34,824 nt of DNA from a virus. Of the stretch, positions 16,532 to 30,591 are shown piece by piece. Below the pieces are notes generated by a model, which was not told the DNA's origin, did not search any database, and worked only from the letters and a program-made list of their open reading frames with translations. Made by a program: the position numbers and the translations under genes. The stretch covers positions 1 to 34,824 of IMG/VR virus record IMGVR_UViG_3300003702_000009. One strand, written 5' to 3'. Within the stretch, counting starts at the first letter, position 1, and every line of letters begins with the position of its first letter.

Positions 16532-16780
16532 TTATTTAGGAATGCATTCGTTGTTAGGTGATGCTTCCATAAGTTTGGCATGAAGTTCTTCTTGTCGTCT
16601 GTCTTCTTTGCGCTTGAAGTAGACGTTAACGCCGAAGGTGGCTATGGCTATGATAATACCTATCACTGCTACTAGATGGTCGATGTTTACCATTCCCCAT
16701 AAAGCCGTAAGGCCACTGGCTGTGTAGTTAGTAGCTGTGGTCTTATCACTCATTTTAAATCTGTCGCTATATGCTGACAT
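16532..16780 (-). CDS. Holin (single membrane segment)
   Basis: An 82-residue protein with a membrane helix at about residues 35-53 (HLVAVIGIIIAIATFGVNVY) followed by a basic, charged C-terminus (KRKEDRRQEELHAK). This organisation, and the N-terminal TTATNYTASGLTALWGMV motif, is that of phage holins such as the HP1 or 2-3 type. I start at the ATG at 16780, which has AGGAGT 7 bases upstream; a longer frame from 16831 lacks a ribosome site. The product makes membrane holes that let endolysin act or depolarise the membrane. It ends the lysis cluster ahead of cos. Confidence 0.72.
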   Translation of the reverse strand: MSAYSDRFKMSDKTTATNYTASGLTALWGMVNIDHLVAVIGIIIAIATFGVNVYFKRKEDRRQEELHAKLMEASPNNECIPK

Positions 16781-16852
16781 GCTATGCACTCCTGTAGGGC
16801 CCATAACATGATTATTCAATTGTTGTTCCATTGTGTATTAGACGTAAGGTTA

Positions 16853-17257
16853 TTACTTACCACGCCATACCTTCAGGCCAATAGCAGATAACACTACAGC
16901 CTTGAACAGAAAGTCTAAATCAACACCGGCTTTCTCAAGATTACTGATGGCCAGTACTGCTGCATCCAACATGCGAGAGTCATTGAATACAGCTAACAAT
17001 ATCGCACCTAATACCAACAAAGCGTAAGGTGAGGTAATGAGAACGGTAACGTACTCATCTTTCCAGCTGCTCTCTAAGCCCTGGGCTAATAGCGCTTCTC
17101 CCTCTGCGTCAGTAAGTGTGACCTCATGCTCACCTTGTAATTTAGTTTGCTTAAGCTTTGCCTTAGCCTGTTCAGCGTTTGCCTTTTGCTCTTGCTTACT
17201 CTTGAAGATACCAACAACACCATCAATAGCGCTGCTTAGAGGTTTTAACCAATTCAT
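16853..17257 (-). CDS. 3TM-type holin-like membrane protein
   Basis: A 134-residue protein with an N-terminal charged region (KSKQEQKANAEQAKAKLKQTK, about 19-39, coiled-coil like) and hydrophobic segments at about 74-92 (TSPYALLVLGAILLAVF) and 110-128 (LDFLFKAVVLSAIGLKVW). The pattern resembles the 'holin of 3TMs' (GTA-holin) family found with endolysins in prophages. It lies between the endolysin and the second holin gene. Whether it is the holin and the smaller gene an antiholin, or the reverse, cannot be told from sequence. No spanin pair is visible nearby. Confidence 0.68.
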   Translation of the reverse strand: MNWLKPLSSAIDGVVGIFKSKQEQKANAEQAKAKLKQTKLQGEHEVTLTDAEGEALLAQGLESSWKDEYVTVLITSPYALLVLGAILLAVFNDSRMLDAAVLAISNLEKAGVDLDFLFKAVVLSAIGLKVWRGK

Positions 17258-17266
17258 TATTTCACC

Positions 17267-17695
17267 TTATGGCTTATATAACTCAAAGTGTGGTAAGTCG
17301 CGGAAACGCTCATCACGGCTTCTACCGTCCATATCCCAATCACCACCCCAGCGAAGCAAGTGGGTTGTTTTACCCTCAGCGTATAACTGACGGGCAATAC
17401 ACATGACATGACCTGCGAATACAGCGAAAGCCAATTCGTCTTTCCAGTCTGTGTTACTTAATTCTACGAAGTAAGGGCCAGCATCAATGGCCATGGAAGG
17501 AAAAGTGTTGTGCTTTGAGTTAGGCCACTCCAATTGACTCAAACCATCGGCAAAGGCTTTGTTCTGCTCATCTTTACCGCGATAGCCGCAAAAGATCGAC
17601 GCGTTAATGAACTTCTTCACCTCGTTGAATATCGTTTGAATATCAACATGGCACGTATCAAGACGGGCTTGTGAAGTTTTGCCGTAGGGAAACAT
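17267..17695 (-). CDS. Endolysin, M15 L-Ala-D-Glu/D-Ala peptidase type
   Basis: About 142 residues from the ATG at 17695 (MFPYGKTSQARL). It shows the M15 peptidase metal-site pattern: SKHNTFPSMAIDAGPY gives His and Asp ligands (about 61-72), and the end carries LRWGGDWDMDG and DLPHFELYKP with the second His. The opening resembles endolysins of the T5 type. The reading frame extends upstream to 17779, giving a hydrophobic leader, but that part is made from an intrinsic terminator at 17709-17734, so I reject it. The enzyme cuts cell-wall peptides. Expressed late under the Q-like regulator; no signal peptide in the chosen form, so holin is required. Confidence 0.82.
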   Translation of the reverse strand: MFPYGKTSQARLDTCHVDIQTIFNEVKKFINASIFCGYRGKDEQNKAFADGLSQLEWPNSKHNTFPSMAIDAGPYFVELSNTDWKDELAFAVFAGHVMCIARQLYAEGKTTHLLRWGGDWDMDGRSRDERFRDLPHFELYKP

Positions 17696-17708
17696 AATCT
17701 TCATCCAT

Positions 17709-17734
17709 AAAAAAGCCCCACCAAATGGTGAGGC
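17709..17734 (-). terminator. Intrinsic terminator upstream of endolysin
   Basis: Minus-strand stem GCCTCACC, loop ATTT, stem GGTGGGGC (one G-T pair), then six T. It is 14 bases before the chosen endolysin start and would block late transcription unless antiterminated. Confidence 0.85.
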
Positions 17735-17779
17735 AAGGTTGGGATAAACAAGACACAACAAGCAGAGAAAAGCAGGCAC

Positions 17780-18239: not shown

Positions 18240-19019
18240 CTACGCTACCTTATCGTCTGGTGTGCTTATGTGCGCCTGGCGTTTTCTAGAAACTAGCATG
18301 CCAAGCTCTTTAATTTTCTGACTAACCAAATCATCGCCAAGCATAGGTTTGCCGTGCTTAGCCACGTAACTGTCGATAACCGGCTTTTTCGGTGTTGAGT
18401 ATTCAAGCGCTTTTTTCGCTTCAGGCAAATCCCCTGTCATAGCTCTGCCTACCCAGTACTCATACTCACCTTTGAACAGTTCCATGAAGTCAGCGTCTCG
18501 CATTTGATAAACACGATGACCAACACGTTCGTCTACCAGCTCAACCGCGCGATGGCTAAATTCAAAGTCTTTACCTTTGAATCTTCCGCGTCTGGCGATC
18601 ACTTCATCGTAAGCTTCACGCAGTGAGGGTATTCCAAGTTCCTCAGGTGTAGGCTTACAAAGTTTCGCAAACTCTGTAGGCCGTGGGCGATATTGCTGCT
18701 TACACGCTTTTTCGATACCAGCTTGAATTTGTCGACTGCTAGAAATTCCCTCGTCAACCATCTGCTTAGCGTATTCACGAATGGCCCATTGCTGCATGTG
18801 CAACTCTGGGTACTTGTTAACGAATTCAGTCCAGTACTCTATCAACACAGGTCTCAGGTTTGTTAGGCAAAACTGGTAAACAGTTTCAAGCCTGGTCGTT
18901 AGAGAAGTCGAAGGCTTCGACCCCTTCGCCACGTTGCGCTCGTTCATAACAGTCTCGCCATGCGGTTGCGGTTGCATTGCGATACCCACTTTGTTGACTA
19001 GATTGCTGCTTGAGTGCAT
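18240..19019 (-). CDS. Replication protein P-like (helicase loader)
   Basis: A 259-residue protein of the lambda P type. The N-terminal half contains the family-like motif YQFCLTNLRPVLIEYWTEF (about 48-66), then HMQQWAIREYAKQMVDEGIS and YRPRPTEFAKLC. It lies directly after the O-like gene and before the Q-like gene. P recruits the host replicative helicase DnaB to the O-bound origin. An AAAGGGGG ribosome site precedes the ATG at 19019; this start overlaps the O-like gene by 134 bases. A shorter start at MNERNVAKG (about 18947) would remove most of the overlap and cannot be excluded. Confidence 0.8.
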   Translation of the reverse strand: MHSSSNLVNKVGIAMQPQPHGETVMNERNVAKGSKPSTSLTTRLETVYQFCLTNLRPVLIEYWTEFVNKYPELHMQQWAIREYAKQMVDEGISSSRQIQAGIEKACKQQYRPRPTEFAKLCKPTPEELGIPSLREAYDEVIARRGRFKGKDFEFSHRAVELVDERVGHRVYQMRDADFMELFKGEYEYWVGRAMTGDLPEAKKALEYSTPKKPVIDSYVAKHGKPMLGDDLVSQKIKELGMLVSRKRQAHISTPDDKVA

Positions 19020-19716
19020 GACTGCCCCCTTTGACTTGGTTGTGCTTGATGGTTGCGCAATAACGCATCCAGTACTTTCGATGTGTGGCTATGTGGCGAT
19101 AGGTTTTACCCGTATCGCTAAACTTCCACTTGTTGAAAATCGCGTGTAGCTCATCCGTGGTGACTGTAAGACCAACTTGCTTGGCCAAACCTACCCAGTC
19201 GTTACAGAAGTTCAGATTTTCGCGCGCGCACGCGCTATCTTCTTCTTCTATATCGGGTATAACGGGTATGTGTTGTTCATCGGATTTTTGAAATTTTAAG
19301 ACATTTCCGCCGTAGCGCTTATGTGGTGCGGGCTGTGGCGTTTTTTTGTTGCGTGTTGTTCCCGTGTTGCTCTCGTGTTGTTCCTCATTTAAACCTGATA
19401 AGTCTGTTGAGGCTAAAGAGCAGTGATAACAGGCTGCTTTTTGTTCTTTAATGGAGCCTTTTCTAACCAGTTCGATTAGGTTTGCGCGCTCTAATTGCCG
19501 AACTGCTGTTCGTATTTTCTCAGTGGTAGGCTTGGGCTCAACCGTGTTAGAGCCACGAGGGGGTGTGTGCTCCATTTCCTCTTTCATAGAACGTAGGGAA
19601 ACATGCACTAAGCCGTCACTATACTCCATATTCTTTCGAAAGCAACGTATGTATAGCGTAACTGCGAATGGAGGTAAGCAGTTATCGCTTAGCGCTTCAT
19701 ACTCGGCCTGATTCAC
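18886..19716 (-). CDS. Replication initiator O-like, with origin inside gene
   Basis: A 276-residue protein. Residues 1-100 form a winged-helix style domain (CLPPFAVTLYIRCFRKN, HVSLRSMKEEM, then RTAVRQLERANLIELVRKG), typical of O N-terminal origin-binding domains. A low-complexity hinge (about 115-150, Glu/Asn/Thr/Lys) contains the iterons, exactly as lambda ori sits inside O. The C-terminal half (LNFCNDWVGLAKQVGLTVTT, then YRHIATHRKYWMRYC) probably binds P. It starts with GTG overlapping the previous stop codon (GTGA), preceded by GAGGG. It ends within the P-like gene. Confidence 0.8.
   Translation of the reverse strand: MNQAEYEALSDNCLPPFAVTLYIRCFRKNMEYSDGLVHVSLRSMKEEMEHTPPRGSNTVEPKPTTEKIRTAVRQLERANLIELVRKGSIKEQKAACYHCSLASTDLSGLNEEQHESNTGTTRNKKTPQPAPHKRYGGNVLKFQKSDEQHIPVIPDIEEEDSACARENLNFCNDWVGLAKQVGLTVTTDELHAIFNKWKFSDTGKTYRHIATHRKYWMRYCATIKHNQVKGGSHALKQQSSQQSGYRNATATAWRDCYERAQRGEGVEAFDFSNDQA
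19269..19384. repeat. Tandem 11-bp iterons: candidate replication origin
   Basis: Plus-strand CGTGTTGTTCC (19352-19362), CGTGTTGCTCT (19363-19373) and CGTGTTGTTCC (19374-19384) are contiguous; a fourth, TGTGTTGTTCA, lies at 19269-19279. The unit is 11 bases, not a multiple of three, so the repetition is a DNA feature and not a protein repeat. Between the fourth copy and the trio lie AT-rich tracts including a T7 run. Confidence 0.7.
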
Positions 19717-20207
19717 TGCATGCCCTCGCCCAGCTTGGTTATCGCTTCCAGCTGCAGCAGGTCGTCTGCTATTTCAACTAGCTTACTTGATATGGTTGGA
19801 TCCATGAATCTGGCTAACGCATTTAGTGTTTCGCGCTTAATGCCAAGGTCTTGCGGTTTACGTCTAATTGCGATGAACAATGCTTCCAAGCTTTTAATGG
19901 ATGTGTGAACCGGGTCTTCCTGCTTTTGGTCTTTAGCAGTTCGTGCTGCGCTGATATCTTTCACTTTGTCGTTAAGTGAAGCCACAGTACCGCCAATCGG
20001 CTCGAAGTAAGTAGCTGCTTTACCTTTGGCCGTGAGCGTCCATGTCTTCTCAGCAAGATCTTTTACGATAAGGCCCTGCCCGCTTAGCCTGCCCAATGCC
20101 GCAGAAAGTGGTGGCAATTCAACAGCACCAATTGCTTCAGCGAGAGCGTCGCGGCTATATGTGCAGTTAGGCTTAAAACAATTCAGTAAATCAGTATCAG
20201 TAAACAT
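19713..20207 (-). CDS. Winged-helix-like phage protein, function unknown
   Basis: A 164-residue protein preceding the O-like gene. Residues 5-60 look like a winged helix (NCTYSRDALAEAIGAVELPP, then SAALGRLSGQGLIVKD); residues 60-75 give a beta hairpin wing. The C-terminal half is helical (SIKSLEALFIAIRRKPQDLG, then LVEIADDLLQLEAIT). I do not recognise the family. It is coupled to both neighbours by start-stop overlaps (one shared base at 20207 and GTGA at 19713-19716), so it is probably a replication or early regulatory partner. Confidence 0.75.
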   Translation of the reverse strand: MFTDTDLLNCFKPNCTYSRDALAEAIGAVELPPLSAALGRLSGQGLIVKDLAEKTWTLTAKGKAATYFEPIGGTVASLNDKVKDISAARTAKDQKQEDPVHTSIKSLEALFIAIRRKPQDLGIKRETLNALARFMDPTISSKLVEIADDLLQLEAITKLGEGMQ

Positions 20208-20461
20208 TACTGGTCCTCAGCGGCAGTGATCAGAATTAGGTCTTCAGGCGCTAAATGAATACGCCCGTTCAAGTCGTCATCAACGTGTATGATGCGTTCA
20301 AAAACAATGGCTACCTTTCCGTAGCTCTTACCATCAAGAATGGTGGATTCAGTTAATGTGCGTGCGCCTGGCATTGGCCGAACTGCATCACCAACCTTAA
20401 AAATTTTCTTTCGGGTTGGTGGTAAGCCCATGTACTTCATCATTCGGCCTTGTGCGCTCAT
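20207..20461 (-). CDS. Small phage protein, unknown
   Basis: An 84-residue protein with a beta-rich middle (KIFKVGDAVRPMPGART, then VAIVFERIIHVDDD and IHLAPEDLILITAAEDQ). This looks like a small SH3/KOW-like barrel and might bind nucleic acid or regulate a partner. No named family recognised. It overlaps the upstream 51-residue gene (ATGA) and ends at the start of the next gene, so the three are one translational unit. Confidence 0.7.
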   Translation of the reverse strand: MSAQGRMMKYMGLPPTRKKIFKVGDAVRPMPGARTLTESTILDGKSYGKVAIVFERIIHVDDDLNGRIHLAPEDLILITAAEDQ

Positions 20462-20613
20462 AAGGTCACCAAAGCGTAAGCGGCAATAGCGAACGGCATA
20501 GCGACTACAAAAAGCGAAATGGTGAGCAAAGCTGCTCTAACCAAGCGCACAGAAAGTGGTGGCTGGTGCCACATATGGTGGTGACCTTTAACTGCTTTAT
20601 TTTTTGTAGACAT
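20458..20613 (-). CDS. Small single-TM membrane protein, 51 residues
   Basis: ATG at 20613, stop TGA at 20458, sharing ATGA with the next gene. The product begins MSTKNKAVKGHHHMWHQPPL and has one strong hydrophobic helix (LLTISLFVVAMPFAIAAYAL, about 30-49). The N-terminus is His-rich. Function unknown; such small membrane proteins in early phage operons may act on the cell envelope or host signalling. The tight overlap and an AGGTAATGG motif upstream support that it is translated. Confidence 0.6.
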   Translation of the reverse strand: MSTKNKAVKGHHHMWHQPPLSVRLVRAALLTISLFVVAMPFAIAAYALVTL

Positions 20614-21645: not shown

Positions 21646-21905
21646 GATTTCCGCTCCTTAGTACAGTTATAGGTTTGCAGCGCTTCAGTTATGCTTTCGA
21701 GTGAAACACTGTTTAAAAGGTATTGTGATGAAACAACAAAAAAACCTAGAAGCGGCTTTTGTTCTGTTAAAAGAAGCTGTTGAAGCGTTGCGGCCACTTT
21801 CGCTGAATGGCTGTGACGACGATTTAGCGTTATTCGTGCAATGTTTGAAGTGCGAGTTAAGCATTCATAAAGCGCTTCTTGATGAGAGGCCATAGCTAAA
21901 GTCAT
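21642..21905 (-). CDS. Possible early protein, coupled to both neighbours
   Basis: An 87-residue minus-strand frame. Its ATG at 21905 overlaps the Cro-like stop (ATGA) and its stop overlaps the GTG of the next gene (GTGA), a pattern typical of translational coupling. The product (QEALYECLTRTSNIARITLN and SQYLLNSVSLESITEALQTY) resembles no family I know. A plus-strand frame at 21728-21895 overlaps it completely and also has a ribosome site; both cannot be equally used, though both might exist. Confidence 0.45.
   Translation of the reverse strand: MTLAMASHQEALYECLTRTSNIARITLNRRHSHSAKVAATLQQLLLTEQKPLLGFFVVSSQYLLNSVSLESITEALQTYNCTKERKS
21728..21895 (+). CDS. Possible small protein antisense to early operon
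   Basis: A 55-residue plus-strand frame (MKQQKNLEAAFVLLKEAVEA and CDDDLALFVQCLKCELSIHK). AAAGG lies 7 bases before the ATG. The composition is that of an acidic, helical small protein. It lies opposite the 87-residue minus-strand frame. No family recognised. Confidence 0.42.
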   Translation: MKQQKNLEAAFVLLKEAVEALRPLSLNGCDDDLALFVQCLKCELSIHKALLDERP

Positions 21906-22165
21906 GCTGCCTTGCTCTCTTCTTCGTGCTGCTGCTTTGTGCTAAATACTTCCGCAATATCGGGTCTTTCGTCTTCTGGAAAGATTACTTCTCCAGGTGT
22001 TAATTCCACCGATGCCGAATACAATGCGGCGCACATAGACACGCTGGCCTTTTTTGGGGTGTATGCAAGCTGATTGAGATAACCAACTGTGCTATCCGCT
22101 TTTTCAGCCAACTTCATTCTCATATCTAGCGATTTGTGCTTTTGAAACCATTCTTTGAGTGTCAT
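21902..22165 (-). CDS. Cro-like regulator
   Basis: An 87-residue protein, first gene of the minus-strand early operon, divergent from the CI-like repressor across the operator region. Residues 15-45 form a helix-turn-helix (RMKLAEKADSTVGYLNQLAY), and a later LTPGEVIFPEDERP stretch is characteristic of Cro-type proteins (recognition of T/G-rich sites, then a short arm). The promoter at 22196-22224 drives it. It should repress the repressor gene and tune early transcription in the lytic choice. Confidence 0.78.
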   Translation of the reverse strand: MTLKEWFQKHKSLDMRMKLAEKADSTVGYLNQLAYTPKKASVSMCAALYSASVELTPGEVIFPEDERPDIAEVFSTKQQHEEESKAA

Positions 22166-22178
22166 AAGTCACCTTAAC

Positions 22179-22246
22179 CTTACCGTTTAAGTAAGATTCT
22201 AGTATTGACAAATCTTACCGTCAAGCTAATTTACCATTTAGGTAAG
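22179..22246. promoter_or_regulatory. Operator cluster between repressor and Cro-like gene
   Basis: Three 17-bp sites with half-sites TTACC/GGTAA: CTTACCGTTTAAGTAAG (22179-22195), CTTACCGTCAAGCTAAT (22214-22230), and TTTACCATTTAGGTAAG (22230-22246), the last with perfect arms. The second covers the -35 of the Cro-side promoter, the first lies just after its -10. Confidence 0.72.
22196..22224 (-). promoter_or_regulatory. Early promoter (pR-like) for Cro-like operon
   Basis: Minus-strand TTGACG (22224-22219), 17-base spacer, TAGAAT (22201-22196), 5/6 matches at both boxes. Transcription would start near 22189, inside the first operator site, and enter the Cro-like gene at 22165. Confidence 0.75.
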
Positions 22247-22269
22247 ATATGGTTTGATTGAGAGACTAA

Positions 22270-22725
22270 ATGAATAAGCGACTGGAATTTATAATGGATG
22301 TAAAAGAGGTTAGGCGATTAAACCTTGAATATCTTATAGCTGTGATCGGTTCAATAAAGGCGTTGTCGGACCTTGTAGACACTGATGCAAACTACATAAG
22401 CCAACTGAAAAATGGCAACAGTAATAAGAAAATGGGTGATAAGTTCGCAAGGAAGCTAGAAAAGGCCTTCGAAAAGCCTGTAGGCTGGATGGATAAACTA
22501 CAGGTTTCGAAAGATGATAATGTTGGTCACTTGAATGATGAGGACCTACTTACACTGGCCGTTAAAAACGTAATAAACCAGTTAATAGCTGCGGGTATTT
22601 ATGAGCCAAAGAAATCGATAGACTCAGAAGCTGTCACAAGCTTAATTATTACGGAGTATAAAAACCTAATTAATAGCAAAGATGCTAAGCGCTCTGGCGG
22701 GAACGAAAGTCATCAAGCTTTATAA
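22270..22725 (+). CDS. CI-like repressor without autocleavage domain
   Basis: A 151-residue protein divergent from the Cro-like gene. Residues 20-70 hold an XRE-type helix-turn-helix (IGSIKALSDLVDTDANYISQ, then KMGDKFARKLEKAFEKPVGW), with the K..GWMD ending common in phage repressors. The rest is about 75 residues of helical sequence. No LexA/S24 peptidase motif is present, so control by RecA-stimulated cleavage is not possible by this protein itself; induction must use another route such as an antirepressor. GAGAG lies 6 bases before the ATG. Its 3' end overlaps the convergent gene at 22685 by 41 bases. Confidence 0.78.
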   Translation: MNKRLEFIMDVKEVRRLNLEYLIAVIGSIKALSDLVDTDANYISQLKNGNSNKKMGDKFARKLEKAFEKPVGWMDKLQVSKDDNVGHLNDEDLLTLAVKNVINQLIAAGIYEPKKSIDSEAVTSLIITEYKNLINSKDAKRSGGNESHQAL

Positions 22726-22996
22726 TATCAGCCGATTTGACTGCATCACAGTCAGTTAGTTTGTGTTTCTCAATGTAACTTAGGAGCTCTTCTATCAGGG
22801 CTTCTCTTCTCTTCGAATATTCAAGCGTTTGCAGTCCATCACTGCACTCTTCAGCACACTTCTTAAGGTATCTTACATTGGCAATATATATGGCTAATTG
22901 CTTTTGCTTTACCTGATGGTTTGGTTTTGAAAATGTCACAAAGACGATTGCTGAAACAACTAAACCAAACACTAATACTAAGAAAAACGTGAACAT
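22685..22996 (-). CDS. Single-TM protein of immunity-region cassette
   Basis: A 103-residue protein with an N-terminal membrane helix (TFFLVLVFGLVVSAIVFVTF) and a basic to mixed cytoplasmic part with helical heptad-like pattern (YLKKCAEECSDGLQTLEYSK, then EALIEELLSYIEKHK). Third gene of a minus-strand set running toward the repressor. It overlaps its upstream neighbour by 19 bases and the repressor end by 41. No family recognised; a role in superinfection exclusion or lysogenic conversion is inferred from position only. Confidence 0.6.
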   Translation of the reverse strand: MFTFFLVLVFGLVVSAIVFVTFSKPNHQVKQKQLAIYIANVRYLKKCAEECSDGLQTLEYSKRREALIEELLSYIEKHKLTDCDAVKSADIIKLDDFRSRQSA

Positions 22997-23529
22997 AGAT
23001 ACTCCTTTATATCCTCACCAACGAACAAATATATAAATAAAAAACAACCGGTAACATTCAGACTTACCGTGTAAAAATCCCATAAGAACCAATATCCAGA
23101 TGGAAAACCTTTATTGACGATGGCGTTACCCAGCTCAATAGATTCACTTATTTTATTTAGTCCAATCACATTTCTATCAATGTGAAGCAGCAGCTGCATG
23201 ATCATTGAAAAAATCATGACTGAAAAAACTGTGGTAGTGGTGAAGTTGGGGCCGAGCTTAAATATAAGCGCTGCCATAAAGAACCCGGCAATAGCATAAA
23301 GAAGAAACCTCGAAGAGTACCGAAAGTACACCTGCTCATCGAATGGTAACTCGTTAATCCAAGCTAATAAGAAATGCCCGAATGCATACATTAAAGCCAC
23401 AGTAAGAGAAGAGGCTATAAGCCTACTGTTTTGTGAGTTGAAGAGCATGTTGTAGACAAATGCCAGGGCGGCAACTACTACCGCCCACTGGTCTACCGCC
23501 CATTCAAAAGCTATTGATATGAGCGCCAT
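22978..23529 (-). CDS. Five-TM membrane protein, unknown
   Basis: A 183-residue hydrophobic protein with five predicted membrane helices near residues 14-32, 36-58, 69-92, 96-116 and 147-170 (the last, DFYTVSLNVTGCFLFIYLFV). Loops are short; a hydrophilic loop with NVIGLNKISESIELGNAIVN separates helices four and five. An AGGT motif lies 9 bases before the ATG. It is the middle gene of the cassette, 9 bases after the secreted peptide gene. I see no enzyme motif. It could be an exclusion protein or a receptor-blocking channel-like component. Confidence 0.65.
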   Translation of the reverse strand: MALISIAFEWAVDQWAVVVAALAFVYNMLFNSQNSRLIASSLTVALMYAFGHFLLAWINELPFDEQVYFRYSSRFLLYAIAGFFMAALIFKLGPNFTTTTVFSVMIFSMIMQLLLHIDRNVIGLNKISESIELGNAIVNKGFPSGYWFLWDFYTVSLNVTGCFLFIYLFVGEDIKEYLCSRFS

Positions 23530-23538
23530 TTATTATAC

Positions 23539-23781
23539 CTATTCGTTACTTTTCGCATTATTTACACCGTTTGTGATTTCCGTTTTCGTACCAGTGTTAC
23601 CGCCATTACTACCGCCGGTACCACCATGGCCTGTACCCCCAGCCCCAAGCGTTGATGAGCATGAAGAAGGGTTTAAGGCGCAAGTAAGCTTGCTAACGGG
23701 GTCAGCGTTAGCAGAGGTAGAGGCATAGCAAGCAAAGATTGCGATTGAAATTAGAGAGGCGTTTTTAAGCAGTTTTTTCAT
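23539..23781 (-). CDS. Secreted glycine-rich small protein
   Basis: An 80-residue protein with a clear signal peptide (MKKLLKNASLISIAIFACYA, then STSANA|DP as the cleavage site near residue 27). The mature part of about 53 residues has two Cys close together (LTCALNPSSCSS) and a low-complexity GGTGHGGTGGSNGGNTGT tract. No lipobox. AGGA is 8 bases before the ATG. First gene of the cassette next to the right operator cluster. Secretion to the periplasm suggests an envelope role; function unknown. Confidence 0.6.
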   Translation of the reverse strand: MKKLLKNASLISIAIFACYASTSANADPVSKLTCALNPSSCSSTLGAGGTGHGGTGGSNGGNTGTKTEITNGVNNAKSNE

Positions 23782-23898
23782 GATTATTCCTGTGTATGTT
23801 GTTGTACGGATGTACAGCCAAACTTTAACAGAAATCTTACTGCTTCAATGAAAATCCCTTACTTCAAACCCCAACTATCTGGTCTTACCAGTTAATTT

Positions 23899-23992
23899 CT
23901 TACCGTTTTGGTATTGCATAACCTTACCTTTTTACTAATATTAGTATTATCTTTTTGGTAAGTAAAGGCAAGATTCTTACCTTTAAGCATAT
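23899..23992. promoter_or_regulatory. Second operator cluster (OL-like)
   Basis: Four sites with the same half-site as the first cluster: CTTACCGTTTTGGTATT (23899-23915), CTTACCTTTTTACTAAT (23923-23939), ATTATCTTTTTGGTAAG (23946-23962) and a weaker one starting CTTACCTTTAAG (23976-23992). Centres are spaced about 24, 23 and 30 bases. The 23782-24084 gap holds no gene; apart from these sites and two promoters I see only AT-rich sequence. Confidence 0.65.
23914..23941 (+). promoter_or_regulatory. Early promoter (pL-like) for plus-strand operon
   Basis: Plus-strand TTGCAT (23914-23919), 16-base spacer, TAATAT (23936-23941). One operator (23923-23939) covers the spacer and -10, so repressor would shut it. 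On the opposite strand TTGCCT (23971-23966), 16 bases, TAATAC (23949-23944) could serve the membrane/secreted cassette. Confidence 0.6.
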
Positions 23993-24084
23993 TCCCTGTG
24001 GGGTGTCGGTTTAATAAATAACCGCGCCTTAATATATAACGGACGTTCAAAAAAGCAATAGCTTTGAACTGGAGATGCGACAAA

Positions 24085-24960
24085 ATGCAAACAAATTCAA
24101 TACTTAAAGAATCAATCGCAGCTGGCAAAGATGAAATGCTGCTTCTTACAAATGCTATCGCTGATGATGTTCGCTTTAGTGTTCAGCACCAAATAGCCCT
24201 AGATAAAGGTTATTTCTTTATCGATGTTTGGAAAGATGGTCTCAACCATTGTTATTTAAGCAATGCAAACTCATGGCCTGGTGAAAACTATCTGTTTGAG
24301 AAGATTCAAGAGACAGTAAGCAAGCTTCGCGAAATCTGTAAAGAGTTCGACATCACAGTCACCAGCACCCCGGCAAAGCCGAATAATGTGGTACCTCTAT
24401 CAAACGCTCACGTTCCTCCGAAGGTTCAGCTGCGCTCCGGTACCATGTTTGATTACACAAACATAAAGCACATGCTTTTTGATATTGAAGACATTGCACA
24501 CGCGCTTTCTAACATGTGCCGCTTCAATGGTCACACCAACAAGTTCTATTCAGTCGCGCAACATTCCGTTCTTGTTAGTGAGTTGGTACCAGAAGAACAT
24601 GCGCTAGCTGCCCTACTTCATGATGCTGCAGAAGCTTACTGTGGTGACATGGTTTCCCCTTTAAAGCAGTTGCTACCTGTTTATCAAAGTATTCACACCA
24701 CTATTGAACAGAACCTTTACAGAAGTGTCGGCGTTGAATGGCCAGTTCATGCATGCGTAAAAGACGCTGACGTAAAAATGCTAGCTACCGAGGTGCGCGA
24801 CCTAATGACACCTCACCCTGCTCACTGGGCATTCATTAGTGATCAAGTGCCTTGTGAAGAAATCATTCATCCGCTTCCGCCAATGGGCGCCAAAGAACTA
24901 TTCCTAGACCGCTACTTCAGTTTGCAAGCTAAAGCTGCAGCGCTAGCTGCTAATGCTTAA
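24085..24960 (+). CDS. HD-domain 5'-nucleotidase-like protein with N-terminal extension
   Basis: About 291 residues from the ATG at 24085, which has GGAG 9 bases upstream; the TTG at 24064 has none. Residues about 120-285 form an HD phosphohydrolase: FDIEDIAHALSNMCRFNGHT, SVAQHSVLVSELVP, LLHDAAEAYCGDM and KDADVKML supply His and Asp metal ligands, like YfbR/YfdR-type nucleotidases. The first 100 residues are an added domain (SVQHQIALDKGYFFIDVWKD, and SKLREICKEFDITVTST) not usual in the family. In phages this enzyme may dephosphorylate dNMPs and adjust nucleotide pools. First gene of the plus-strand early operon. Confidence 0.8.
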   Translation: MQTNSILKESIAAGKDEMLLLTNAIADDVRFSVQHQIALDKGYFFIDVWKDGLNHCYLSNANSWPGENYLFEKIQETVSKLREICKEFDITVTSTPAKPNNVVPLSNAHVPPKVQLRSGTMFDYTNIKHMLFDIEDIAHALSNMCRFNGHTNKFYSVAQHSVLVSELVPEEHALAALLHDAAEAYCGDMVSPLKQLLPVYQSIHTTIEQNLYRSVGVEWPVHACVKDADVKMLATEVRDLMTPHPAHWAFISDQVPCEEIIHPLPPMGAKELFLDRYFSLQAKAAALAANA

Positions 24961-25163
24961 TGAAGCGCGAAGACGAGTTAAACATTGACCTTGGCTTGGC
25001 AGTGCTAAGTGTACTTATCGAGCCAGGGCAAATAATTACTCGTGACGCTATTGCAGAAGTATGCGGCTGCAACGTTTACCGCATAGACAAACTAGAAAAA
25101 ACCGCGCTTGAGAAGTTCAAGCGAAGAGCACAGCAACACGGTTTAGACGATTTTATTGAATAG
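24960..25163 (+). CDS. Small sigma-region-4-like HTH protein
   Basis: A 67-residue protein beginning one base inside the HD gene stop. Residues 20-60 (GQIITRDAIAEVCGCNVYRI, then DKLEKTALEKFKRRA) resemble region 4 of sigma factors or similar tetrahelical HTH domains: entry, turn with Gly-Cys, recognition helix, and basic tail. No sigma region 2 is present. Possibly a small transcription regulator. Translational coupling to HD gene suggests co-control. Confidence 0.6.
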   Translation: MKREDELNIDLGLAVLSVLIEPGQIITRDAIAEVCGCNVYRIDKLEKTALEKFKRRAQQHGLDDFIE

Positions 25164-25192
25164 CTGCTAGCAGCTTAACCAAAGGAAAAACA

Positions 25193-25561
25193 ATGAGCGA
25201 ACAAGGCCCATTAAATGAATTTCTCGCTGAAGTAGATAGCGGTGCATTTGAGCGTCAGCTAACTGCCTTTCTTACAGAGGTGAGCAAATCAATCTTTCGA
25301 TTCAATAAGGGTGGCAAGTTAGACGTTACCTTCAAAATTGAACCGGCTGCAACGTCTGCCCAAAACGGCGCAGGCATTAAAGTGAAGGTGGTTTCTACTG
25401 CCAAATATTCACGTCCTACCCCAACGGGCAAGATTAACGAAGAGACCACCACTGAAACCCCAATGTGGGTGAACAAGGATGGTTCTATTAGTTTGCTTGC
25501 TAAAAGCCACGACGACCTGTTCGCGGGTCAAGCCAATGTAACTAAGATGACTAAGGAATAA
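25193..25561 (+). CDS. Phage protein upstream of DUF2303 gene, unknown
   Basis: A 122-residue protein with an AAAGGAAA ribosome site. N-terminal helix (LAEVDSGAFERQLTAFLTEV) followed by beta strands (GGKLDVTFKIEPA, GIKVKVVSTAKYS) and a Thr-rich region. It lies 2 bases before the DUF2303 gene and looks like a protein commonly paired with it in lambda-like prophages (compare the yfdQ/yfdR/yfdS set of the E. coli CPS-53 prophage). Function unknown. Confidence 0.7.
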   Translation: MSEQGPLNEFLAEVDSGAFERQLTAFLTEVSKSIFRFNKGGKLDVTFKIEPAATSAQNGAGIKVKVVSTAKYSRPTPTGKINEETTTETPMWVNKDGSISLLAKSHDDLFAGQANVTKMTKE

Positions 25562-25563
25562 TT

Positions 25564-26421
25564 ATGTTCGATCGAGACACACTTTTAGAGCTTCAAAAAA
25601 GCGAACTGAACAAGCAATTAAATGCGCAGCTGGCTGACACTACTTGCTTGATTCAGGAAAGAGAAGCGCCGGCCATGATGGTACCGGATAATTTTTCTTT
25701 GCTTAACTTTGAAAACCAACTGCAGAACCGAACACGTTTTCGTGGCTCCTTTACTACGGAAGACATTAAAAGCTTTGTTGCATACGTGAGTGAGTACGTT
25801 GGCGAAGAAACGCCGCTTTACCCTAACGCGCAAGTATTTATCGACGGTGAAGACATGAAAGCCGCAGCCGTTTTAAACGTAGGTGATTTGGTTGTACCTG
25901 GTCACTGTGATCACAAGGCTACACTTAGCATTCCTAAAACAGCCGCTTATAAGGCGTTGATTTCTGCATGCGGTGGACGTTCTGGTCAACAAGACCTTAG
26001 TGATTTCATTGAAGACTGGAAAGACCGCATCACAGTAGACGGTATTTCAGGTGAACAAATGAATCTATCTGTGGCCATTAACGCAGTAAGAACGGTAACC
26101 GTTGAGCGTGTACGAGAAATTGAAAGCTCAATAGATCAGTTCGAGAACAGCGCCAGCGTGACAGAACGTGAAGCGGCCAAGAACAAGAAAGACCTGCCAG
26201 CCTACATTAATTTTACCTGCGTGCCCTATGCAGGCCTATCAGAAGTTACGTTCAGAATCCGCGTTTCAATGCTCACTGGTGATGCGCGCATTACCTTCAC
26301 GCTGCGCATAGTGGGTGAAGAAGAGCATAACGAACAAATCTCTGAAGAGTTCAAAGAGAAGATTTCAGACAACCTTAACGAGTTGCCTGTTGAAGTCTTT
26401 ATCGGCGGCTTTCGCGCTTAA
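25564..26421 (+). CDS. DUF2303 family protein (YfdQ-like)
   Basis: A 285-residue protein of the DUF2303 type: start MFDRDTLLELQKSELNKQLN, then FENQLQNRTRFRGSFTTEDI, a strand-rich core with NAQVFIDGEDMKAAAVLNVG, GHCDHKATLSIPKTAAYKAL and RTVTVERVREIESSIDQFEN. Family members are found in early regions of tailed phages next to HD nucleotidases. Biochemical role is not established. It is the largest early protein here and the operon neighbour of the HD gene, in agreement with the CPS-53 order of similar genes. Confidence 0.8.
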   Translation: MFDRDTLLELQKSELNKQLNAQLADTTCLIQEREAPAMMVPDNFSLLNFENQLQNRTRFRGSFTTEDIKSFVAYVSEYVGEETPLYPNAQVFIDGEDMKAAAVLNVGDLVVPGHCDHKATLSIPKTAAYKALISACGGRSGQQDLSDFIEDWKDRITVDGISGEQMNLSVAINAVRTVTVERVREIESSIDQFENSASVTEREAAKNKKDLPAYINFTCVPYAGLSEVTFRIRVSMLTGDARITFTLRIVGEEEHNEQISEEFKEKISDNLNELPVEVFIGGFRA

Positions 26422-26434
26422 CCATCAATAAGGT

Positions 26435-26451
26435 GTGGGGCACTGCCCCAC
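26435..26451 (+). other. GC-rich hairpin after DUF2303 gene
   Basis: Perfect 7-bp stem GTGGGGC / GCCCCAC with a three-base loop, 14 bases after the stop codon. No T-run follows, so it is not a standard terminator; it may protect or punctuate the mRNA. Confidence 0.55.
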
Positions 26452-26460
26452 TCAGTAACT

Positions 26461-26643
26461 ATGAAACACATATTTCAATTGAACGGTACCGGAGTAAGCG
26501 CGTTGGCCAAGGTGATTGGTTCGAACCTGCCGGTTCAGTTTAGCGTTGATGAGGTTCGCCAGTTAGAGAACCTTGCCATTCAGTTAGAACGCGCTGAAGC
26601 GCTAGAAGAGACAAGTAAAAAGGATTGGGCGAATGCCATTTAA
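26461..26643 (+). CDS. Small phage protein, unknown
   Basis: A 60-residue protein (MKHIFQLNGTGVSALAKVIG, LPVQFSVDEVRQLENLAIQL). Basic start, helical second half. It overlaps the next gene by 11 bases. Little Shine-Dalgarno sequence precedes it; it begins 9 bases after a hairpin. No family recognised. Confidence 0.55.
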   Translation: MKHIFQLNGTGVSALAKVIGSNLPVQFSVDEVRQLENLAIQLERAEALEETSKKDWANAI

Positions 26644-26965
26644 AAGAAACATGACTGAAAAAAGTGAGTTCATGAAGGTCGTTAGACCTTTACAAACGCT
26701 CGTTGCGAATTGCAAAAATCCGTTATTTGAGAGTGTTGCTTTTACGCTCAAATCACACATTGAAGATGGTGATCTTGCTGCAGCTATTATCATTTTCTGG
26801 CAGGGCGATAGCGAAAGCATTAATCGCTATAAAAACCGCACTATCGATATCTATCAATTTTATGACATGTCGGAAATTAAAAAGCTTACAGCAAAAGTGA
26901 CTCGCCTATTGAAGGTGAAAACAATCGAAAATTTAGAAAAGGAATTCGCAAATGAGACCGCATAA
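26633..26965 (+). CDS. Small phage protein, unknown
   Basis: A 110-residue basic protein (MPFKRNMTEKSEFMKVVRPL). AAGGATTGGGCG precedes the ATG. Helical throughout, with LFESVAFTLKSHIEDGDLAA and TIDIYQFYDMSEIKKLTAKV. It begins within the upstream gene and its end overlaps the next one, so it is part of one coupled operon. No known family. Confidence 0.6.
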   Translation: MPFKRNMTEKSEFMKVVRPLQTLVANCKNPLFESVAFTLKSHIEDGDLAAAIIIFWQGDSESINRYKNRTIDIYQFYDMSEIKKLTAKVTRLLKVKTIENLEKEFANETA

Positions 26966-27134
26966 CGATGTATTTCAACAATTCACAGATTCATGCTTTC
27001 GCGGCAAAGGAACGACTGAGAAGCGCCGCACCAAGCAAGAGTCACTTGAAGCCTGTCGCGTTCGTCGTCGCATCGAAGCACATGAAATGGCAAAGGAGCT
27101 AGGTGTAACACTTGAAGATTTGGGGATGCAGTAA
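26952..27134 (+). CDS. Small basic phage protein, unknown
   Basis: A 60-residue basic protein (KGTTEKRRTKQESLEACRVR, then RRIEAHEMAKELGVTLEDLG) with a helical Arg/Glu-rich centre, possibly nucleic-acid binding. AAAGGAA sits 7 bases before the ATG. Ends on the start of the next gene (shared A). Confidence 0.55.
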   Translation: MRPHNDVFQQFTDSCFRGKGTTEKRRTKQESLEACRVRRRIEAHEMAKELGVTLEDLGMQ

Positions 27135-27529
27135 TGATTAAACTTGATTTTAAGGTCTTAGGCCACTGCCCTGTTAATGGCGCCCTAATTTCAGCTAATG
27201 AGGTTAGAGAGGCATTCGCCCCAATCGTTGAAGCTGCCACGCGTAATGAGCAACAGCTTGAAATGCTGCTCGAACATTGCCTTCGTATCAACGTGGTAGA
27301 TGAAGGTGAATGTGTAGCTGATGCAATTATTCAGGAGCTGGCGCGCGTTAATGCAGAAAATGAGCGCTTAAAGCGTTTGGCCATGTCTGAACTGCAGCAG
27401 CATGCAGAAACCATTAATGACGGAAACGTCGAATGCGGCCTATTGCAAAAACAGTGTGAGCAGCTGCAGGAACAAATTAACCAGGTCACTCGTGAACGTG
27501 ATCAATGGAAAGAGGTGGCCAGCGCATGA
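27134..27529 (+). CDS. Coiled-coil phage protein
   Basis: A 131-residue protein. The first 35 residues (LDFKVLGHCPVNGALISANE) may form a small domain; residues 60-130 are coiled coil (LARVNAENERLKRLAMSELQ, LLQKQCEQLQEQINQVTRER). Similar proteins are common in marine prophages, function unknown. It shares its stop with the next gene's start (ATGA). Confidence 0.6.
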   Translation: MIKLDFKVLGHCPVNGALISANEVREAFAPIVEAATRNEQQLEMLLEHCLRINVVDEGECVADAIIQELARVNAENERLKRLAMSELQQHAETINDGNVECGLLQKQCEQLQEQINQVTRERDQWKEVASA

Positions 27530-27897
27530 GTGATGTAAAAACAAGTAAATTTGGGGGTGCGCTTCTCTTTATCCTTGGTGAGTTCGCTGCTGCTGAAGAG
27601 GAAATGATTGAAGATGGGGGCATGGAGGTTTTTGGCGAGGACGACCAAGGCCGCGAGGGTTCGTGTGAAGTCAGTATTAATGAACTGGCACAAGCTGCGT
27701 CTGATGAAATAAAGCATCTCACAGAACAACTAGCAAAGGCTAATGAGCGTGTTGAGGGGCTGGAGGATTATGTGGATAGGGCTAATGAACTACTAGAGGA
27801 GGTGAGGGCTAGCGGAGACTTAGGTTTATATATGGATAACAAAGTAACTGCTTTCTTGGTTGGAGACTCCGAACAACTACGCAAGGAGCAAGAGTGA
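27526..27897 (+). CDS. Acidic phage protein, unknown
   Basis: A 123-residue acidic protein starting at MSDVKTSKFGGALLFILGEF; GAGGT is 9 bases upstream of this ATG. A second, in-frame start 21 bases earlier has no ribosome site. Residues 60-105 are coiled coil-like (ELAQAASDEIKHLTEQLAKA, NERVEGLEDYVDRANELLEE). Overlaps both neighbours by the ATGA type of junction. Possibly a structural partner or an early anti-host factor; not recognised. Confidence 0.6.
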   Translation: MSDVKTSKFGGALLFILGEFAAAEEEMIEDGGMEVFGEDDQGREGSCEVSINELAQAASDEIKHLTEQLAKANERVEGLEDYVDRANELLEEVRASGDLGLYMDNKVTAFLVGDSEQLRKEQE

Positions 27898-28112
27898 TGA
27901 ACTACGAAAACCTTTTTAACATCAGCTGGGCGCTTTTGATTTGTTCTTCACTTCTCTGTGTTTTCGGTTTGATTGTCAGCTTCAAATATTATGGCGGCGA
28001 TTGCCGAATGGAACCAAGGCTTTTTCATTACTTTATGAAGGTTGTGAGTTGGATTTGGCTTAACTCCATTGTTGCAGCTTTTGGTTTTGGTGCAATGGTA
28101 TTAGGTAGCTAG
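27897..28112 (+). CDS. Two-TM small membrane protein
   Basis: A 71-residue protein with hydrophobic helices at about 8-28 (ISWALLICSSLLCVFGLIVS) and 47-69 (VSWIWLNSIVAAFGFGAMVL) and a short polar loop. AAGGAG lies 8 bases before the ATG at 27897. Function unknown. Confidence 0.6.
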   Translation: MNYENLFNISWALLICSSLLCVFGLIVSFKYYGGDCRMEPRLFHYFMKVVSWIWLNSIVAAFGFGAMVLGS

Positions 28113-28113
28113 A

Positions 28114-28389
28114 ATGATGCAGATGACGCTACCTAAAGCATGCATAGCCTGTAATCACTTTTCAGTTGAAGGGTATAAGCAGGATAAACACTGCCCTTAC
28201 GTTGAAAAGTATACAGGCCGTGCGAAAGACAGAACCCAGTTCGGTACCTGCGAAGCGCACGGTAAAAAAGTATTCTGCACTGAAATCTGCAGCAGCTTCG
28301 TTCACGACTCGTTAATTGAGGTATTCGAAGTTACAAACAGGCCAGAACCGCTAGAGCCGCACCAGGCTAAAATGTTTGAGGTACTATGA
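28114..28389 (+). CDS. Cys-rich phage protein, possible zinc binder
   Basis: A 91-residue protein with Cys10-x2-Cys13, Cys27, Cys46, Cys55 and Cys59 and nearby His15, His26 and His49, a pattern that could bind one or two zinc ions. Sequence around them: ACIACNHFSVEG, KHCPYVEKYTG, GTCEAHGKKVFCTEIC. The C-terminus is helical and lacks Cys. I cannot assign a fold. It is upstream of the DUF4224 and integrase genes. Confidence 0.6.
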   Translation: MMQMTLPKACIACNHFSVEGYKQDKHCPYVEKYTGRAKDRTQFGTCEAHGKKVFCTEICSSFVHDSLIEVFEVTNRPEPLEPHQAKMFEVL

Positions 28390-28390
28390 A

Positions 28391-28597
28391 ATGCAAATTG
28401 TAATAGGCTCAGATATAACGACAATGACCGGGTACGAGAAGCGAAGCTCTCAAGTACGCTGGTTCGAAGAGAACGGTATTACCTACCGTGTAAATGCTAA
28501 AGGAGAGGTGTGGACAACTGATGACTGGCTAAATGGCCGCGATAAGGCGTCAGCTGCAGCAAATGATGACGGTTTCAACCCTAACTTTTTGAAATAG
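28391..28597 (+). CDS. DUF4224-type protein, excision/integration partner
   Basis: A 68-residue protein. The TGYEKRSSQVRWFEENGITY segment, followed by NAKGEVWTTDDW, matches the DUF4224 pattern (TGY..R..Q..W....GI.......G). These proteins are small and lie directly upstream of tyrosine integrases, where excisionases often sit. The ATG at 28391 has GAGGT 8 bases upstream. Its stop codon is 3 bases from integrase. Directionality control of integrase is the likely role, not shown. Confidence 0.75.
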   Translation: MQIVIGSDITTMTGYEKRSSQVRWFEENGITYRVNAKGEVWTTDDWLNGRDKASAAANDDGFNPNFLK

Positions 28598-28600
28598 ACT

Positions 28601-29602
28601 ATGCCACGTAAACGTAAAGTAGAAGATCAATGGATGCCTCAGCGAGTGTACAAGGGGCGCAGCGCTTACGAGTTTAAACCCGTAGGTGGTGGAACCGTGC
28701 GCCTTTGTGATGTCGACGCCAAGCAATCGGAAGTATGGGCTGCTTACGAAAAATATATGGCCATAGCCAATAACAAGCACACTGTTCAACACCTAGTTGA
28801 AACGTTCTTTGATAGTGCTGATTTCCGCGATTTATCGTTACACACGCGCAAAGACTATCAGAAGTACAGCAAGAAAGTACTCAGTGCATTTGGCAAAATG
28901 GACCCGAACACGGTTACCCCCGTTCATGTTAGAAAGTTCATGGACATTCTTGGCCAAAAGTCACCAGTGCAAGCGAATAGACACAAAGCGTTCTTATCTC
29001 GTGTGTTTCGCTGGGCATACGAACGCGGCAAAGTGCAGCGCAACCCATGCCAAGGCGTTAAGCAGTTCAAAGAGAAAGCAAGAGACCGCTATATTGAAGA
29101 CTATGAATATGACGCGGTTTATCAGAGAGCTTGCCCAGTAGTTAAAGCAGCAATGGAAATTAGCTATTTGTGCATGGCCCGTAAAGCTGACGTGGTTAAA
29201 TTGCATCAAAGCCAGCTACTTAAAGACGGTATTTTCATACAGCAAGGTAAAACGGGTAAGAAACAAATTAAGGAATGGGGCCCACGACTACGCAAGGCTG
29301 TAAGCACAGCAAATGAAATAAACCCAGACGTATTCAGCATGTTTGTACTTCACCAGAAGAACGGTCACCCGTTCGCAGTAGCGAGTTTCGATCAGCGCTG
29401 GCGCAAAGCTATCATCAAGGCGCGCGAAGAAACCCAGCTACCTTTAGACTTCACCTTCCACGACATTAAAGCGAAAGGCATTAGTGACTTTGAAGGAACA
29501 GTTAGCGAGAAACAACAAGCCAGTGGCCACAAGACAGAAAGCCAGGTTCGTGTGTATGACAGAAAGGTCGCAGTGGTACCAACAGTGGAGAGTAAGAAGT
29601 GA
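28601..29602 (+). CDS. int: Tyrosine integrase
   Basis: A 333-residue phage integrase. The N-terminal part (residues 1-60) is a basic arm-type binding domain; residues 60-150 form a SAM-like core-binding domain (HTVQHLVETFF, MDILGQKSPVQANRHKAFLS). The catalytic domain carries Arg194 (CMARKADVV), Lys217 (KTGKK), His287 (FHDIK, with Lys290 at the usual Arg place), His310 (SGHKTESQ) and the nucleophile Tyr319 (RVYDRK). It lies near the tRNA-Leu 3' end, its probable target. It integrates and, with a partner, excises the prophage. Confidence 0.95.
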   Translation: MPRKRKVEDQWMPQRVYKGRSAYEFKPVGGGTVRLCDVDAKQSEVWAAYEKYMAIANNKHTVQHLVETFFDSADFRDLSLHTRKDYQKYSKKVLSAFGKMDPNTVTPVHVRKFMDILGQKSPVQANRHKAFLSRVFRWAYERGKVQRNPCQGVKQFKEKARDRYIEDYEYDAVYQRACPVVKAAMEISYLCMARKADVVKLHQSQLLKDGIFIQQGKTGKKQIKEWGPRLRKAVSTANEINPDVFSMFVLHQKNGHPFAVASFDQRWRKAIIKAREETQLPLDFTFHDIKAKGISDFEGTVSEKQQASGHKTESQVRVYDRKVAVVPTVESKK

Positions 29603-30323: not shown

Positions 30324-30370
30324 TGGTGCCCGGGGCCGGACTTGAACCGGCACGCTGTTACCAGCGAGGG
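30324..30370. other. Presumed attachment site within tRNA-Leu 3' half
   Basis: Integrases of this kind use tRNA 3' ends and restore the gene. The integrase gene lies 0.7 kb away and prophage sequence begins right after the CCA. The matching copy must be beyond the left edge; the exact core length cannot be set here. Confidence 0.55.
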
Positions 30371-30410
30371 ATTTTAAATCCCTTGTGTCTACCAATTTCA
30401 CCACCCGGGC
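30324..30410 (-). tRNA. tRNA-Leu (UAA)
   Basis: Minus-strand acceptor GCCCGGG/CCCGGGC, D-arm with AATTGGTAGACAC, anticodon stem AGGGA/TCCCT with loop TTTAAAA (anticodon TAA), long variable arm CGCTGG..ACAGCG, T-arm GCCGG TTCAAGT CCGGC, encoded CCA. Intact. Its 3' end, facing the prophage, is the likely attachment site. Confidence 0.95.
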
Positions 30411-30414
30411 ATCG

Positions 30415-30474
30415 GGAGTCGAACCGAGATAGACGGATTTGCAATCCGCTGCATAGCCATTCTGCCATTCCGCC
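30415..30474 (-). pseudogene. tRNA-Cys (GCA) lacking its 3' end
   Basis: From 30474 the strand reads GGCGGAA (acceptor), D-arm, anticodon arm GCGGA TTGCAAA TCCGT (anticodon GCA), then CTCGG TTCGACT. The 3' T-stem half (expected CCGAG) and acceptor strand (expected TTCCGCC, then TCCA) are absent: the sequence goes from ACTCC directly into CGATGCCCGGG, the start of tRNA-Leu. Confidence 0.8.
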
Positions 30475-30515
30475 AGATGCGTCTGGCGCGTGATTAAAAC
30501 TCATCTCTAAGAGAT

Positions 30516-30591
<76 letters not shown>

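Follow-up and report, generated by a model that had tools for sequence, protein, structure and literature searches.

To our knowledge, accounts of phages communicating by peptides are confined to phages of Gram-positive bacteria, in the form of arbitrium (AimR–AimP–AimX) of Bacillus phages. There, a pro-peptide gene lies beside the gene of its receptor, AimR, a cytosolic TPR protein that binds DNA. Two published accounts likewise describe phage peptide communication for Gram-positive hosts (PMC10075063, PMC12768286). Accessory genes of another kind are carried in or near the immunity region, among them rexAB of lambda, co-transcribed with cI, and sieB of lambda and P22, which opposes its surrounding operon. 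Small peptides encoded beside multi-TM proteins are also found among double-glycine pheromones and among class II bacteriocins and microcins with their immunity proteins.

We analyzed a cassette of three minus-strand open reading frames at 22685–23781 of IMG/VR record IMGVR_UViG_3300003702_000009 (positions 1–34,824; the whole stretch of 34,824 nucleotides is called the window below). The window is a prophage of a marine bacterial virus, with tRNA genes and genes reading as host pgsA and uvrC on its right side; the tRNA-Leu and tRNA-Gly genes at 30324–30591, at the border between prophage and host and downstream of the integrase, are the likely attachment site. The cassette is flanked on one side by a repressor-type HTH gene and on the other by clustered TTACC..GGTAA sites (about 23879–23990), and is convergent with the repressor gene, the 3' ends of the 1-TM and repressor genes sharing 41 bp (Table 1). 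The genes are tightly packed, with 9 nt between the peptide and 5-TM genes and an overlap of 19 nt between the 5-TM and 1-TM genes. After a signal peptide ending in ..SANA, the peptide ORF continues with a C-x6-C element followed by STLGAGGTGHGGTGG, and the stretch of the proposed core reads STLGAGGTGHGG. Beyond the operator cluster, the first gene of the left operon (24064–24960) encodes a YfbR/HD-type deoxynucleoside monophosphatase (phrog_318, E 4e-67).

Table 1. Features of the cassette and its surroundings in the window, and of the module in Pseudoalteromonas phage HS6 (locus L003)
Feature	Coordinates	Strand	Basis or remark
Exported peptide precursor, 80 aa	23539..23781	-	ORF encoding a Sec-type signal peptide, a C-x6-C element and a Gly-rich core; related genes in G003, G004 and A. 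portus
Predicted Sec signal peptide, residues 1-26 (..STSANA/DPVS)	23704..23781	-	by eye: MKK start, hydrophobic stretch, AxA-type end
Two-cysteine element C34..C41 (CALNPSSC)	23659..23682	-	Cys pair and Pro unchanged across three phages
Proposed mature core GAGGTGHGG, residues 46-54	23620..23646	-	near-invariant in three phages
5-TM protein, 183 aa, motif HIDRN..LN..YW.LWD; receptor candidate	22978..23529	-	ORF, family profile; five hydrophobic segments
1-TM protein, 103 aa; one N-terminal TM, C-terminal domain predicted cytoplasmic	22685..22996	-	KPNHQVKQK immediately past the TM
Repressor-type HTH protein, 151 aa, convergent with the cassette	22270..22725	+	phrog_12107, E 2e-12; no S24 peptidase domain in Pfam scan
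Cro-like gene, first of the opposite (lytic-direction) operon	21902..22165	-	position; weak PHROG repressor match, E 0.015
OR-like operator cluster (TTACCnTTnnGGTAA)	22179..22250		
OL-like operator cluster, between cassette and left operon	23879..23990		highly conserved among window, A. portus, G003 and G004
Candidate cassette promoter TTTACT-17-TAATAT, operator half-site in spacer	23938..23966	-	position conserved in four phages
HS6 peptide gene	L003:7645-7821		'hypothetical protein' in RefSeq
HS6 5-TM gene	L003:7821-8393		full gene missing from RefSeq annotation; only a 66-bp ORF inside
HS6 1-TM gene	L003:8345-8719		'hypothetical protein' in RefSeq

Compared with the Alteromonas portus prophage, the peptide, 5-TM and 1-TM genes show pN/pS of 0.27, 0.11 and 0.02, ratios by which all three are judged to be maintained under purifying selection. 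Because these values are low and two diverged phages carry all three genes in the same order, we regard the ORFs as real genes. Relatives of the repressor, the 5-TM protein and the 1-TM protein are all found in three IMG/VR contigs (G002, at 99%, G003 and G004) and in the A. portus prophage, with 5-TM identities to the window of 61% in G003 and 47% in G004. Where the arrangement was read (G003, G004 and A. portus), the order is peptide, 5-TM, 1-TM and convergent repressor, and every full-length relative found of the window phage type has the three cassette genes together. Among 397 genomes of the family, only A. portus has a repressor relative of full length, and there the cassette is present; two further relatives share the HTH only (G200, locus L121, and G295, locus L120), and the repressor in L121 is of the S24 type and lacks the cassette.

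The second of these loci, in a prophage, records an exchange of the whole immunity block. L120 is co-linear with the window and 86–92% identical over most of the flanking early region (18242–20461 and 24084–29598), with several short unmatched stretches; identity is 72% at the left edge of the block (20455–20613 and 21660–21925) and 81–82% in the host flank. Positions 21926–24083 of the window are replaced in L120 by 2.5 kb with no significant nucleotide similarity (best E 0.056), and the three module proteins of the two phages show no significant similarity in BLASTP. The layout of the block is nevertheless as in the window, with an unrelated repressor on the plus strand and the 1-TM, 5-TM and exported-peptide genes on the minus strand; the 1-TM gene overlaps the 3' end of the repressor by 38 bp, and the peptide carries two SGNGGG(E/D)EPP units and CSFLPFVC. 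An extra HTH gene in the block (L120:7898–8320), on the lytic-direction strand, encodes a protein similar to the window repressor in its HTH (46% identity across 67 aa). As repressor and module were swapped alike, the module travels with immunity specificity. The preliminary description of this DNA, which had named a signal-peptide protein with a glycine-rich tract, a five-TM protein and a single-TM protein as a coupled, repressor-linked set between the repressor and the OL-like cluster, and had proposed co-occurrence across prophages as a check, agrees with the ORFs, their layout and selection, their co-conservation and the joint swap.

The same gene set extends well beyond this phage type. 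It consists of an exported Gly-rich peptide precursor, a 5-TM protein and a 1-TM protein, the last either encoded by its own gene, usually downstream of the 5-TM gene, or fused as a C-terminal domain to the 5-TM protein. Diverged members were found with a 5-TM profile, and one prophage member matched phrog_31674 (function unknown); a 5-TM gene of the phrog_31674 type is present in 28 of the 247 genomes searched. The 5-TM proteins of a second subfamily, including those of prophages L103, L047 and L112, match this family, and the window protein alone does not, its relation lying at the profile level only: the two subfamilies align with the DR motif in register at moderate strength (hhalign 74%, E 2.7e-5), and the 1-TM groups are linked weakly (hhalign 40%). 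The module is carried by lambdoid, P2-like, Mu-like and other (pro)viruses and by stand-alone chromosomal loci, nearly all of them from the family searched around Alteromonas. A class-wide search of 321 genomes gave no strong member beyond the A. portus prophage and one weak match (G919, E 3e-4), and tblastn against plasmids, and for the other subfamilies against phages, gave no matches. At almost every locus inspected, a small ORF for an exported-type or Gly-rich precursor lies upstream of the 5-TM gene; 35 of 54 upstream ORFs contain a Gly-dense stretch (at least 4 G in 10 aa) vs. 9 of 255 control ORFs, a comparison among phylogenetically nonindependent loci.

Among isolated phages, the Mu-like Pseudoalteromonas phage HS6 (NC_070820.1) carries the module distal to its tail genes (Table 1), with the candidate peptide core around NNGGGGHPLNP, and a second contig of this kind (L123) contains the peptide and 5-TM genes up to the point where its sequence ends. 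HS6 has been suggested to alternate between lytic and lysogenic life (PMC5498523) and has been employed as a virulent phage in community experiments (PMC13077301). In several genomes, an interval between argH-like and coaD-like genes (L045:9389–13638, L053, L054 and L055) contains a single small ORF of the exported type together with between one and seven diverged 5-TM genes in tandem, which may form a polymorphic recognition locus. At another locus (L046:9725–9967), a double-glycine-leader peptide and a 5-TM gene adjoin a gene for a PAAR-like protein.

A convergent HTH regulator recognized by Pfam or PHROG follows the module at ten loci (window, L036, L047, L088, L097, L103, L106, L112, L115 and L120), in L112 with one gene in between; a weak eleventh case is L099. 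The module adjoins genes for phage replication or recombination in L103, L112 and L088, a tail gene of the P2 gpD type is near that of L047, and an integrase, an origin-nicking protein and a packaging ATPase are near that of L036. L106 and L115, by contrast, lie among host-type genes and appear to be stand-alone chromosomal loci, and for this reason the HTH partner is not simply due to prophage location. Many chromosomal copies lack an adjacent HTH gene. Small neighbors of 82–104 aa at fused-type loci look HTH-like and were left uncounted, as two that were scanned gave no Pfam confirmation; a second small XRE gene (..GVKTRKTYENWEK..) occurs near the chromosomal copies L041, L048, L099 and L106. 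The SOS-cleavable Peptidase_S24 domain is absent from every module-linked regulator scanned and present in the related repressor of the one module-less phage compared, L121.

The precursors have leaders of at least three types, Sec, double-glycine and a third, unnamed one, and across these types the short cores are similar (GAGGTGHGG, GNGAGIEPPK and NGGGLKPDP), sharing a Gly-x-Gly..P pattern. In precursors with NGGGxEPP cores, the CALNPSSC of the window has a counterpart in CSFLPFVC (L120) and similar elements. Several precursors contain a unit of 9–10 residues two to eight times. Pairwise codon differences among these units are predominantly synonymous (synonymous:nonsynonymous 21:0 for GNGAGIEPPK in L096, 89:7 in L099, 24:4 in L089 and 5:1 for the duplicated core GAGG(S/T)GHGG of G003), the units having been chosen by a pattern that favors similar residues and lowers the nonsynonymous counts. 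The synonymous divergence shows that the amino acid unit is held constant, and such constancy is the signature expected of a precursor releasing a short peptide.

We consider it probable that the cassette is the phage form of a peptide-signaling module that has not been described before. The gene set and its order, the co-conservation, the precursor features, the predicted topology, the convergent HTH regulator and the block swap are the features of the sequences that suggest this reading. We infer export and processing, peptide binding, a membrane-to-repressor step and the direction of the effect on lysogeny: the 80-aa precursor would be exported, releasing a short Gly-rich peptide (core GAGGTGHGG), the peptide would be sensed at the periplasmic face by the 5-TM protein with the 1-TM protein as its partner, and the signal would pass to the convergent HTH lysogeny repressor, which lacks an SOS-cleavable domain, thereby tuning lysogeny. 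That the peptide both signals from cell to cell and controls lysogeny is a more tentative proposition, to which we give slightly less than an even chance. The broader model is a possibility of much the same standing, a little short of an even bet: in marine bacteria that are Gram-negative, several unrelated kinds of temperate phage would control lysogeny through a new class of secreted peptide, with a 5-TM/1-TM receptor acting on a non-SOS repressor; the repressor and the peptide–receptor pair would be swapped as one block of immunity and language; and bacteria would use the same module for signaling of their own.

The absence of an exporter or protease gene beside the module and of an obvious export route for the third leader type counts against signaling, and the tandem 5-TM arrays behind one small ORF (L045) also suit arrays of immunity genes. 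These arrays, the small exported peptide beside a multi-TM protein and the double-glycine leaders of some precursors would fit a peptide bacteriocin or kin-recognition toxin with a membrane immunity protein, carried as a cassette of benefit to the lysogen. We find this unlikely, given that the cores are hydrophilic Gly/Pro-rich units of 9–10 residues, often repeated, that phage-type HTH regulators recur beside the module, that the two-partner membrane architecture is conserved and that no dedicated transporter was recognized by eye among the neighbors at the loci inspected.

The peptide-signaling reading also has to be weighed against that of the preliminary description, an envelope-acting superinfection exclusion or abortive system. 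In such a system, membrane proteins of the lysogen would block entry or DNA injection of other phages with the help of the exported protein. The cassette occupies the place of rex in lambda, between repressor and OL, its products are membrane-targeted, and it is exchanged with immunity, as exclusion genes often are. Its expression in lysogens may be doubtful, however, since the candidate promoter overlaps the operators. The promoter proposed earlier, TTGCCT-16-TAATAC at 23944–23971 (minus strand), is present in sequence and its position is conserved, the best-scoring hexamers, TTTACT-17-TAATAT, being displaced by 5–6 nt and kept, as such or as an equivalent, in related phages. That best-scoring site, at 7.67, is no better than shuffled sequence (median of best scores 7.70), and a cassette promoter is thus not established. 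A palindrome, ACTGGTAAGACCAG (minus strand), at 23879–23891 and its neighbors adjoin the TTACC operators; they are nearly invariant in four phages and unlike the repressor consensus. Just upstream of the peptide gene, an inverted repeat, TGTACGGATGTACA (23803–23816), is kept in G003 and degenerate in G004 and is a possible site for a further regulator.

The cassette proteins gave only subthreshold matches in scans of Pfam, NCBIfam, PHROGs and PADLOC, and the lack of any Pfam, PHROG or PADLOC match to an exclusion family agrees with the earlier remark that none of them resembles a known exclusion system. This lack, the module's presence in phage-free chromosomes and distal to tail genes in HS6, and the peptide repeats of the precursor all argue against exclusion, which we consider improbable. 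Peptide signaling fits better, because it accommodates the chromosomal copies outside prophages, the repeat-bearing precursor and the phage-type HTH regulators that accompany the module outside prophages too. Among the subthreshold matches, those of the 1-TM protein to PADLOC PycTM (E 0.02) and a PHROG holin (E 0.09) and that of the peptide to a 'major coat protein' (E 0.016) were dismissed as compositional. Lysis cassettes lie among the late lysis genes, with the C terminus of the i-spanin periplasmic and a lipobox in the o-spanin; a spanin or lysis reading was rejected here, as a separate lysis-like region lies at 16532–17779, no lipobox is present and the positive residues past the TM predict the C terminus to be inside.

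The topology predicted for the family is compatible with peptide sensing. Five TMs are predicted in 51 of 57 family members, and across the 5-TM family the K/R counts favor an N-out/C-in orientation (341 vs. 116); the window protein alone, with 3 vs. 3, is undecided by charge. With the family orientation, the conserved DRN..LN / LWD region would face the periplasm, the expected location of an exported peptide. No known sensory domain was recognized in the module proteins, and a PDB sequence search with both 5-TM profiles gave no relative. An AlphaFold2 model built from a four-sequence alignment was poor (pLDDT 60.6), and the empty result of Foldseek with this low-confidence model is uninformative for that reason. 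The peptide could also act as a cell-autonomous envelope sensor, reporting secretion or proteolysis stress to the repressor from the periplasm with no exchange between cells, and the identical anatomy, the near-constant pairing of peptide and 5-TM genes and a two-Cys element that could respond to periplasmic redox state are all consistent with this, but the repeated cores, and the swapping of peptide/receptor types along with immunity, are more suggestive of a specificity system and make it a very improbable account.

Compared with the described systems, the cassette resembles rexAB and sieB in its placement as accessory genes in the immunity region and, like sieB, opposes the direction of its surroundings. 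It differs from both in its lack of Pfam or PHROG matches, in its exported repeat peptide and in its chromosomal homologs outside phages, and from rex in being convergent with the repressor. With double-glycine pheromones and class II bacteriocins or microcins, it shares the leader of some precursors and the small peptide beside a multi-TM protein; unlike them, it has no ABC transporter or histidine kinase alongside, its other precursors have Sec or third-type leaders, and its neighbor is an HTH regulator. A description of the module was not found in the literature searched. If it signals, it would point to an unrecognized peptide-signaling family in Alteromonas-related bacteria and would suggest how prophages with S24-less repressors choose the time of exit; dormant viruses could then sense each other or their surroundings. 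The module is directly testable, as HS6, which carries it, is in culture (PMC5498523, PMC13077301).

The closest parallel in organization is arbitrium and, with it, the RRNPP systems. Here, too, the phage gene for an exported-type precursor adjoins a receptor candidate and is linked to lysogeny control: the 80-aa Sec precursor gene lies 9 nt from the 5-TM gene, and this pairing recurs at nearly all loci. No sequence relation between the cassette and arbitrium was detected. In place of a cytosolic TPR protein of the AimR kind, the candidate receptor is a membrane pair of 5-TM and 1-TM proteins; regulation would fall to an HTH repressor encoded separately by a convergent gene, and the host is Gram-negative. 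The role of the cassette would thus resemble that of arbitrium by analogy and without homology and, if the module does signal, phages of marine Gram-negative hosts would have a second, nonhomologous peptide solution, built around a membrane receptor.
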